Origin: Deltaproteobacteria bacterium
GTDB taxonomy: Bacteria > Desulfobacterota > Deferrimicrobia > Deferrimicrobiales > Deferrimicrobiaceae
Assembly (NCBI GenBank): GCA_016219515.1
Contig: JACRMU010000031.1
Location: 1-35,445, forward strand
Direction of reading: 5' to 3'
Length of the DNA: 35,445 bases
Part shown: piece by piece, positions 17,697-21,000 of the stretch
Layout of the letters: each line of letters opens with the position of its first letter
How positions within the stretch are numbered: the first letter of the stretch is position 1
Program-made: the position numbers and the translations under genes
Notes under the pieces: model-generated
Database searches by the model: none
Told to the model about the DNA's origin: nothing
Seen by the model: the letters and a program-made list of their open reading frames with translations, nothing else

Positions 17697-18179
17697 TCAA
17701 GCGAGCGACGCCAGCTCCTTTTCGATCGTCTGGACGTGCCCCTTCTCGAAGGCGGCGAGGTGGTCGAACACCTTCTTTACGTCCGGGCTCTTGGAACGGG
17801 AGGAAGCGTCGCTGAACAGTCCGAACGCCTCCTTCTCCAGCGAAAGCGCCATCTCCAGGACTTCCTTTTTGCCTTTCAGCTTCGCCATCTTTCCCAGCAG
17901 CTCTTTGTGGGTGCCCTGCACCAGCTCGTCGATGTCGGGCAGGCCGTCCTTGCCGAGGATGTCCTTGTATGGCGCCCAGCACTCGGAGCGCACGTTCTCG
18001 TCGAATTCGTCCTCCAGGATGAGGAAGTGCCCTTTTTCATCCATGGCGAGCTTGTCGAGGATTTTCCCGAGAGATTCGTCCTTGACCAGCTTCCGGGCGC
18101 GCTTGTAGAAGACGTACGCCGCGATCTCGGACTCGATCCCCAGGTTCAGATACTTGAGCGCCTCTTCGCTGAATTTCAT
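17697..18179 (-). CDS. Ferritin-like / rubrerythrin diiron protein
   Basis: 160-residue four-helix bundle with the paired diiron signatures of erythrin-type proteins: GIESEIAAYVFY ... DEKGHFLILEDE in the first half and LEKEAFGLF ... FEKGHVQTIEKE in the second (the E and ExxH ligands). There is no C-terminal rubredoxin domain, so this is the short rubrerythrin/ferritin-like class, likely for peroxide reduction or iron handling in the cytoplasm. An in-frame start exists at 18287, but ATG 18179 has GGAGGAAT upstream and begins at the first helix. A selenoprotein glutaredoxin-like gene lies 113 bases upstream on the same strand, suggesting a shared oxidative-stress role. Confidence 0.88.
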   Translation of the reverse strand: MKFSEEALKYLNLGIESEIAAYVFYKRARKLVKDESLGKILDKLAMDEKGHFLILEDEFDENVRSECWAPYKDILGKDGLPDIDELVQGTHKELLGKMAKLKGKKEVLEMALSLEKEAFGLFSDASSRSKSPDVKKVFDHLAAFEKGHVQTIEKELASLA

Positions 18180-18292
18180 CGATGGATTCCTCCGGCGGGA
18201 TTTGGCAATCGGGAGCATCAAGGATATCACGGCCGCACAGGCCCGTTCAACCGGGTGTCCCGCGCGGCCCACGGCCGCGCCGTTCACACCGC

Positions 18293-18508
18293 TCAGCTTC
18301 CTCCGTAGCCGATGGTCACCTTGTCGTCTTCCAGGAGAACCGGCACGTCGCGGATCCCCCGGGTCAACGCGACCATCTCGGACATCGCGGCACGGTCGTT
18401 CTCGACGTCCTTATATGCCACCTTCGCTCCGGCCTTCTCGTAGTCCCTACGAGCCCTGGTGGTGTAGGGTCAGCTGTCCTTCCCGAAGATCGTCACGGTG
18501 CGCGGCAT
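18293..18508 (-). CDS. Glutaredoxin-like selenoprotein (in-frame UGA = Sec13)
   Basis: From ATG 18508 (AAGGAGGG just upstream) the frame reads MPRTVTIFGKDS, then TGA at 18472-18470, then PYTTRARRDYEKAGAKVAYK and on to VPVLLEDDKVTIGYGGS, stopping at TGA 18295-18293. Without the internal TGA it is a complete 71-residue glutaredoxin fold. The TGA stands exactly where the first active-site Cys of C-P-Y-C belongs, giving U-P-Y-T. The substrate-binding VPVLL and C-terminal GYGG also match. A hairpin 17 bases after the UGA fits a bacterial SECIS. This resembles the Uxx-star glutaredoxin-like (seleno)protein group. Cytoplasmic thiol/selenol redox function is inferred. It requires SelA, SelB, SelC and SelD elsewhere in the genome. 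The alternative is a nonsense mutation, which is unlikely given the position. Confidence 0.88.
18437..18453 (-). promoter_or_regulatory. Bacterial SECIS hairpin for Sec13
   Basis: On the mRNA strand, CUCGUAG-GGA-CUACGAG forms a perfect 7-bp stem whose apical loop begins with G. The stem begins 17 bases after the UGA, so the loop lies 24-26 bases downstream. Known bacterial SECIS elements have the apical loop 16-37 bases after UGA and a G in its first two positions, so both criteria are met. An alternative CCCUAC/GUAGGG pairing overlaps it. Confidence 0.78.
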
Positions 18509-18573
18509 GCGGCCCTCCTTTGGGGGAATCGGGCTGCCGGTATTTCCCGGCCAGTGTATAGAATGTATGATGA

Positions 18574-21000
18574 ATGTCAATCGATGGACGATTTCCATAC
18601 TCGACAGGAAAAGTGAAGGCCACGTCCGCAAGGGATAAGGACGCATGGAGAGGGGCTTCGCCCCTCCCGGACCGCCAGGCGAAGGCCCCTCCCTCCCCGC
18701 CGTTTCCGGAGCTGCTGGCTCCCGCGGGCTCCGTGGAGGCCTATTTCGCCGCCGTGTCGGCGGGGGCGGACGCCGTCTACCTCGGGCTCCAGAGGTTCAG
18801 CGCTCGGGAGAGGGCGGAGAACTTCACCCTGGAGGAGCTGTGCCGCGTCCTGCCGCACGCGAAACAGCGCAGCGTGCGCGTTTACCTGGCGATGAACACC
18901 CTCCTCACGGAGACCGACCTTCCCGCGGCGATCGAGCTGTTGCACCAGGTGGTCCCCCTTTCCCCCGACGCCGTCATCGTGCAGGACCTGGGCCTTCTGC
19001 GGATCGTGCGCGAATTCTTCCCGGGGCTTTCCGTCCACGTGAGCACGCAGGCCGGCTGCGCCTCGGCGATGGCCGCCGGGGAATTCGCGCGCCTGGGAGC
19101 GCAGCGGGTGATCCTGGAGCGCCACCTGCGGCTCGATGAGGTGCGGCAGATCGTTCAGCGGGCCGGCGTGGGCGTGGAGATCTTCGTGCACGGCGCGATG
19201 TGCTACTCCTATTCGGGAAAGTGCTTCTTCTCGTCGTACCTGGGGGGCAAGAGCGGAAACCGCGGGGCGTGCGTGCAGCCGTGCCGGCGGCTCTACGGAT
19301 ATCCCGGCGGGGAAGAAGCGGTCTTCTCGACGCGCGATCTTTCCCTGATCGATTCCCTGCCGGAGCTCATCCCGCTGGGGATTGCGGCATTCAAGATCGA
19401 GGGGCGGATGCGCAGCGCGGAGTACGTTTCCGGCGTGGTTTCGGCCTACCGGACCGCCCTGGACCTCATCCGGGCGGGGAAGGCCGCCGAAGGGGTCGCC
19501 GCAGGGAGGAAGATCCTGTCGGATGTGATCGGGCGGGAGGAAACCCCCGGGCTCACGGGGGGAGCCGCCCCCGGAGATGTCGTCGCGGGCGGGAGCACGG
19601 GGAGCATTGGAGAACTCCTGGGGGCCATCCGGGAGGTCCGCGACGGCTGGGCGCATCTCCCGGGAGAGGTTCCCGTGTCGCGGGGCGACCGGCTTCGCGT
19701 CCAGTTCCAGTGCGACGGATCGGGGAAAGGGTTCTCGGCGCTTTCGATGCGCGCCGGTCCGCAGGGCTTCTACGTCAAGGTCCCCTTTCCCGTTTCGGAG
19801 GGCGATCTCCTGTTCCGCGTGGGCGGCGGAGGGCGGGCGGAAATCACCCGCCTGGCCAAAAAGGAGATGGAGTCGATCCCCTCGAAAGGGGTCTCTTTCC
19901 GGGTCGCCGCCGGCGACGGGATCGTGGCCGTCGAGGCGACGTACGGAAAGGTCAAGGGCGCGGTCTCCTTCCGGGTTTCGGGAGGGAAGGCCGCCGGGGC
20001 GGTAAAGATCCCGCCGGACGCGGAAGCGAGGCTTGCGGCGGCCTACCGCGGAGATCTCCCCCTGGGAGAGGTCCGCGTCGAGGGGCGCGGCGCCACGGTT
20101 TCCTGGCCCGACGTGGAGGCCCTGTTCGTCAAGGCCGCCCGGAAGTTCGACCGGGACTTCTACCTGGCGGGAAAGGAGCTGCGCCTCTCCATCCTTCCCA
20201 CGCTGCGGGTGACGGGGAACCGCCGGGAGAAGCTTCCGACGGTCTTTTTCACCGGCTGCCGGGTGGAGCAATTGCCGCATCTTCCGCAGGAGGAGGAGAT
20301 CGTCCCGGTCGTGGATTTCACCCGGGGGCTGGCAAGGGATCCGTCCCCGGCCGGCCGCGGCGCCTTCCGGGACCGGATCTACCTTCGGCTGCCGCCGCCG
20401 CTCCTCGAGTCCGACGCGGCCTTTCTCCGCCGCACGGTGAAGGAGGCGGTTCAGAAGGGGCACCGGCGGTGGGTGGTTTCCGACGTGGGCCACTTCGCCC
20501 TCTTCGGCGGGTTCGATTCGAGGCGGGAGGTGACCCTGGTCGCCGACCACTACTTGTACGGCTTCAACCTGGGGGCGCTGTCGGTCCTGTCCCGGCTGGG
20601 CGCTTCCCGGATGGTCCTCCCGATCGAGGCGCCGCTTTCGGCGATCCGGGCGGTGGGGAAATACCTGCACGGCCTGGGGATCGCGGTGGCCTACTCTTCC
20701 GTCCCTCTCATGATCTCCCGGTTGATCCCCGCCGGAGGGTTTCGGGGAGGAGAGGTCGTCAGCCCGAAGGCGGAACGGTTCGTCGTCGAGGTGGACGACC
20801 GGGGATCGACCCTCCGTCCCGTGCGGCCGTTCTCCGCATCCGGCGCCCTGCACGAATTCCGGGCGGCGGGAATCCAGGATTTCCACGTGGACTTGCGGGG
20901 TGTTCCTCCGCTGGAGATCGCGCCGATCTTCGCGGCGCTGCGGGAGGACCGGGGAATCCCCGATACCTCCACGTTCAATCTCTTCCGGGGAAACTTCTAA
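18574..21000 (+). CDS. U32 family protein with DUF3656, RlhA-like
   Basis: 808-residue U32-family protein. The N-terminal half has ELLAPAGSVEAYFAAVSAGADAVYLG, STQAGCASAMAAGEFARLGAQRVILER, EIFVHGAMCYSYSGKCFFSSY, GNRGACVQPCR and FKIEGRMRSAEYVSGVV. The four clustered cysteines are those of the family. A long C-terminal part corresponds to the DUF3656/collagenase-like region. This architecture is that of E. coli RlhA (YdcP), which hydroxylates a cytidine in 23S rRNA, rather than a true protease. ATG 18574 gives an extended N-terminus; GTG 18613 is an alternative, and neither has a strong ribosome site. Its stop abuts the start of an EF-G paralogue, consistent with a ribosome-related role. Confidence 0.87.
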   Translation: MSIDGRFPYSTGKVKATSARDKDAWRGASPLPDRQAKAPPSPPFPELLAPAGSVEAYFAAVSAGADAVYLGLQRFSARERAENFTLEELCRVLPHAKQRSVRVYLAMNTLLTETDLPAAIELLHQVVPLSPDAVIVQDLGLLRIVREFFPGLSVHVSTQAGCASAMAAGEFARLGAQRVILERHLRLDEVRQIVQRAGVGVEIFVHGAMCYSYSGKCFFSSYLGGKSGNRGACVQPCRRLYGYPGGEEAVFSTRDLSLIDSLPELIPLGIAAFKIEGRMRSAEYVSGVVSAYRTALDLIRAGKAAEGVAAGRKILSDVIGREETPGLTGGAAPGDVVAGGSTGSIGELLGAIREVRDGWAHLPGEVPVSRGDRLRVQFQCDGSGKGFSALSMRAGPQGFYVKVPFPVSEGDLLFRVGGGGRAEITRLAKKEMESIPSKGVSFRVAAGDGIVAVEATYGKVKGAVSFRVSGGKAAGAVKIPPDAEARLAAAYRGDLPLGEVRVEGRGATVSWPDVEALFVKAARKFDRDFYLAGKELRLSILPTLRVTGNRREKLPTVFFTGCRVEQLPHLPQEEEIVPVVDFTRGLARDPSPAGRGAFRDRIYLRLPPPLLESDAAFLRRTVKEAVQKGHRRWVVSDVGHFALFGGFDSRREVTLVADHYLYGFNLGALSVLSRLGASRMVLPIEAPLSAIRAVGKYLHGLGIAVAYSSVPLMISRLIPAGGFRGGEVVSPKAERFVVEVDDRGSTLRPVRPFSASGALHEFRAAGIQDFHVDLRGVPPLEIAPIFAALREDRGIPDTSTFNLFRGNF

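Follow-up and report, generated by a model that had tools for sequence, protein, structure and literature searches.

The window, by which we mean the whole 35,445-nucleotide stretch analyzed here (contig JACRMU010000031.1, positions 1 to 35,445, from a Deltaproteobacteria bacterium of the Deferrimicrobiaceae), almost surely carries on its minus strand an intact gene for a 74-residue protein with two selenocysteines (Sec), a member of UXX-star selenoprotein family 1. This reading draws on the translation, on family profiles and on the behavior of both UGA codons among homologues. The features of the locus are as follows.

18553..18580, minus strand: sigma-70-like promoter, TTGACA-16-TACACT, upstream of the UXX-star gene (from a consensus scan only, 10/12 matches)
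18514..18521, minus strand: ribosome-binding site AAAGGAGG, just 5' of the ATG at 18508 (from the sequence)
18284..18508, minus strand: UXX-star selenoprotein family 1 gene, 74 codons plus stop, two Sec (translation and NF041114)
18470..18472, minus strand: UGA codon 13, Sec at the active-site position, U-P-Y-T (TGA in 32/34 distinct homologues)
18437..18453, minus strand: SECIS-like hairpin 1, CTCGTAG-GGA-CTACGAG, 7 bp, with the loop GGA starting 24 nt after UGA13
18293..18295, minus strand: UGA codon 72, second Sec, third residue from the C terminus (TGA in 34/34 distinct homologues; the NF041114 alignment crosses the codon)
18284..18286, minus strand: true stop, TGA here and TAA or TAG in many homologues (translation)
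18262..18280, minus strand: SECIS-like hairpin 2, GCGCGGCC-GTG-GGCCGCGC, 8 bp, loop GTG, beginning three bases 3' of the true stop
17697..18179, minus strand: ferritin/rubrerythrin-like protein, 160 amino acids from ATG, downstream of the UXX-star gene (PF02915, 41 bits)
18574-21000, plus strand: U32 peptidase-family gene, divergent neighbor of the UXX-star gene

Gene boundaries and family membership

Translated from the ATG at 18508, the frame begins as glutaredoxin-like sequence, MPRTVTIFGKDS-U-PYTT..., and reading past UGA72 gives GYGGS-U-A-V and then the stop; the complete product, with U for Sec, is MPRTVTIFGKDSUPYTTRARRDYEKAGAKVAYKDVENDRAAMSEMVALTRGIRDVPVLLEDDKVTIGYGGSUAV. A preliminary description of this DNA had placed the start, the UGA at codon 13 within U-P-Y-T (18472-18470) and a ribosome site ahead of the ATG where we also find them, but it recognized a single in-frame UGA and ended the protein after 71 residues at 18295-18293. 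The TGA at that position is instead the second Sec codon, so that there are two, at codons 13 and 72, and the chain continues for 74 amino acids to 18286-18284. A UXX-star gene called at the second UGA would still be wrong. The locus had also been described as a hidden gene, which holds insofar as it is small and easily missed, although an NCBIfam model for the family already exists.

That model, NF041114 (UXX-star selenoprotein family 1), matched residues 5-72 of the translation with 100.1 bits against a cut-off of 72 when C was written for U. Applied to the genome DNA read through stops, it scored 88.6 bits, with the full model (1-70) aligned and two TGA codons inside the alignment. The Pfam glutaredoxin model PF00462 gave 36 bits (cut-off, 22.9), the similarity running across UGA13, and the earlier claim that the translation is glutaredoxin-like is thus upheld by both searches. 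Assignment to the UXX-star group had likewise been anticipated and agrees with the NF041114 score, but the C-terminal Sec-X-X-stop from which the group takes its name had been overlooked.

In its UxxT motif, two Sec residues, C-terminal Sec-X-X-stop and length, the product is like other members of UXX-star family 1, and we found nothing in which it differs; it is an ordinary member. NF041114 is listed with the motif UxxT and two Sec (PMC13188914), and family 1 corresponds to the “Distant Grx-like protein 1” of PMC9312934. The family, its two Sec and the UxxT motif are therefore already catalogued, and the locus adds a new member. UXX-star families 2 and 3 and the HUGP/GUXX-star fusion (NF041211, NF047338, and NF045501) contain the same domain, but against these models the locus scored 43.7 to 47.6 bits, well under their respective cut-offs of 100, 97, and 325 bits. 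With the classical and selenoprotein glutaredoxins (PF00462, CPYC or UxxC) it shares the domain and, by profile, the active-site position, whereas it has Thr for the second active-site Cys, ends its chain after the Gly-Gly turn and carries a second Sec at the end.

Conservation and decoding of the two UGA codons

To follow the two codons beyond the window, the genomes of 198 relatives were searched in six frames with NF041114, which yielded homologues above the cut-off in 57/198, most of them with two in-frame TGA codons. Codon counts were made over 34 distinct homologous proteins, the window's own included. Codon 72 was TGA in every one, and codon 13 was TGA in 32 and TGC (Cys) in the other 2, so that the random damage at this codon that had been named beforehand as evidence against a selenoprotein did not appear. 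The final stop was TGA in 18, TAA in 9, and TAG in 7, and the two codons that separate it from UGA72 were conserved, mostly as G/A-V. This is the pattern that marks a Sec codon: TGA is retained at one position, and the stop that follows three codons later changes freely.

These counts bear directly on two other readings of the gene. If UGA13 alone encoded Sec and UGA72 were a real stop, the product would be a single-Sec protein of 71 residues, and the hairpin that follows would be a terminator or some other 3' element. We regard this as very unlikely: a real stop would be expected to drift to TAA or TAG, as the next in-frame stop does and codon 72 does not, the two codons beyond it are conserved, mostly as G/A-V, and NF041114 itself extends two positions beyond codon 72. 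The strong, G+C-rich hairpin 3' of the gene is terminator-like and speaks for the single-Sec protein; its properties are considered below. Alternatively, a Cys glutaredoxin gene might have been broken by point mutations to TGA, or the TGA codons might be sequencing errors, and it is true that glutaredoxins normally have Cys at position 13 and that some relatives have TGC there. We give this almost no credence, as dozens of genomes from many families share both TGA codons, nothing else interrupts the frame, and the genome has a complete set of Sec machinery genes.

The machinery was examined in the window's genome (2.09 Mb, 97.5% complete), where all four of the genes proposed earlier as a check, selA, selB, selC, and selD, were found; absence of selB and selC had been put forward as grounds for rejecting the selenoprotein. 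The tRNA-Sec gene selC scored 74.8 bits, above the cut-off, and was assigned the anticodon tca by ARAGORN. SelA scored 576.6 bits, SelB 298 bits (322.8 bits with a neighboring second piece), and SelD 326.9 bits. The SelD gene (L053, G000:C114:11647-12441) has an in-frame TGA at CAG-U-ASK, and SelD, being itself a selenoprotein, is an independent sign of active Sec decoding.

The two Sec positions did not behave alike. Six loci (L014, L018, L083, L085, L086, and L091) have Cys at position 13 and keep the C-terminal TGA, and none of the homologues read showed the reverse pattern, with Sec13 kept and Cys at 72. As Sec72 was never Cys in these homologues and Sec13 sometimes was, the C-terminal Sec would seem to be the more critical of the two. 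In the part of the gene 3' of UGA13, substitutions relative to 11 relatives from the same taxonomic family were commonest at third codon positions, though replacements were also many, a pattern in which selection for coding is visible but not extreme.

One sister-family genome (G024) has two UXX-star genes above the cut-off (L070 and L086), which differ in having Sec or Cys at position 13. In two variant relatives (L084 and L090), the motif reads UPYA or UPFC and an insertion precedes a GGT-U-PV segment, with the result that the Sec is not third from the end.

Hairpins following the two UGA codons

The published rules for bacterial SECIS elements (bSECIS) specify a loop of 3-9 nt, a G in the first two loop positions, a spacing of 16-37 nt, and an energy of -7.5 or lower (PMC13188914). 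Hairpin 1 fits the loop, spacing and G rules but, at -7.1 kcal/mol for the hairpin alone, narrowly misses the limit of -7.5; among the TGAs of the window, 10% are followed by a hairpin as good by energy. In 17 homologues, 89% of the cells in its columns were paired, with one pair showing a compensating change (G-C to A-U), and the covariation score was 0.143, compared with 0.133 in shuffles, 96 of 500 of which reached 0.143. The 7-bp hairpin of the preliminary description retains its SECIS-like form, its loop occupying nt +24 to +26 after the UGA, but its energy is unremarkable and its covariation weak. As conserved residues are encoded across this stem, conservation of the protein may account for part of the pairing, and it is mainly conservation and position that point to hairpin 1 as a SECIS element.

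Hairpin 2 conforms to all of the bSECIS rules, its loop starting 21 nt after UGA72 (a spacing of 20 nt) and its energy being -16.2 kcal/mol, a value matched by the hairpins after only 0.4% of the window's TGAs. Among 38 distinct homologous sequences, 35 form, after UGA72, a stem of 5 bp or more whose first two loop positions include G, where the same search of shuffled sequences led us to expect 6.5 of 38 (maximum, 13 in 200 shuffles). The spacing from UGA72 in this set was mostly 17-22 nt. For the covariation score, 23 sequences could be placed in a single 19-column register. Each of the eight pairs had changed on both sides, compensating cells numbered 64, compared with 20.9 after shuffling, and the score was 0.851, compared with 0.278 in shuffles, with no slid register above 0.18. 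These 23 sequences were anchored on their own hairpins and are therefore biased towards pairing, and the 38-sequence search, in which the shuffles were searched alike, is the fairer guard.

A terminator was considered for hairpin 2 and rejected, as the window and nearly all relatives lack a U-tract. In the 35 bases examined at each of 35 loci, the window included, no run of at least six T was seen after the hairpin; the exception is a sister-family relative, L070, in which a run of 8 T occurs soon after the hairpin and which is the one locus to lend the single-Sec protein support of this kind. The near-fixed spacing and the G-containing loop start are further points against that protein. Our preferred interpretation, which keeps UGA72 as a Sec codon, is that hairpin 2 is very probably a 3' untranslated region (3'-UTR) SECIS element outside the coding region.

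Bacterial SECIS elements have been described as lying inside coding regions (PMC13188914). An engineered element in the 3' untranslated region, however, works for a C-terminal Sec in a recombinant protein in E. coli (PMC9595596), which makes the arrangement mechanistically sound, and our literature searches for natural bacterial 3'-UTR SECIS elements returned nothing relevant. A natural, covarying 3'-UTR SECIS is the sole point here that is possibly underdocumented. The observations support a model in which SelB and Sec-tRNA-Sec would recode UGA13 with the help of the hairpin in the coding region and UGA72 with that of the hairpin beyond the true stop. It is likely that a natural SECIS element wholly 3' of the stop, conserved and strongly covarying across many families, serves the third-last codon and that a separate element within the coding region serves the first Sec, giving opposite placements in a gene of 75 codons. 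Such a gene would be a compact natural system for studying how two UGA codons are recoded within a single short mRNA, the second of them lying three codons before termination and having its hairpin past the stop. The locus contributes a clean set of proteins with two selenocysteines, encoded at syntenic positions.

Predicted function and gene neighborhood

The nearest solved structures by profile are glutaredoxins (best E, 2e-7), and glutaredoxins are also the top Foldseek matches of an AlphaFold2 model (five sequences), all with E above 0.1. Mean pLDDT of the model was 72.6, residues 70-74 fell below 50 as a disordered tail, and the distance between Sec13 and Sec72 is unreadable from it. A truncated glutaredoxin fold is the best explanation of the protein, in which the Gly-Gly before Sec72 is conserved in sequence and Thr takes the place of the resolving Cys.

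In the mechanism that we envisage, Sec13 of U-P-Y-T would be the attacking selenolate of a glutaredoxin-type redox center without the usual second Cys, and Sec72, on a short flexible tail after the Gly-Gly turn, would be its partner. Sec72 might then resolve oxidized Sec13 as a diselenide, or pair with Sec13 on a soft metal or metalloid. We give about even chances to a redox partnership of Sec13 and Sec72 as the predicted function; in broader terms, the protein is most likely a thiol/selenol redoxin or a soft-metal(loid)-binding protein, as predicted from its sequence. That the Sec pair binds or delivers a soft metal or metalloid, rather than taking part in thiol-disulfide exchange, is a tentative alternative. 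Sec in the UXX-star family has been proposed as a possible metal ligand, or as interacting with unknown substrates (PMC13188914), and replacement of the resolving Cys of CxxC by Thr is in keeping with a metal site. The overall sequence, by PF00462 and by the profiles of solved structures, is nonetheless glutaredoxin-like, and the conserved ferritin/rubrerythrin-like neighbor fits oxidative-stress redox chemistry as well as it fits metals.

Conservation of neighbors was assessed by tblastn, clustering of longest open reading frames being too noisy in this G+C-rich DNA. Counting the window, 13/14 same-family loci have the ferritin/rubrerythrin-like gene downstream, as do 2/2 sister-family loci (the window, L057, and L059-L071); it is absent in G006 (L058) and missing from most of the more distant homologues. 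Outside the class, we found no common neighbor, the exceptions being L012, with a rubrerythrin-like gene nearby, and L076, with a distant match. This synteny may reflect a functional link or plain lineage synteny, and the neighbor offers a first lead on physiology in the lineage. Just upstream of the UXX-star gene in L060, L063, and L070, on the same strand, is a gene, absent in the window, for a zinc-ribbon, M48-like membrane protease (HExxH by eye).
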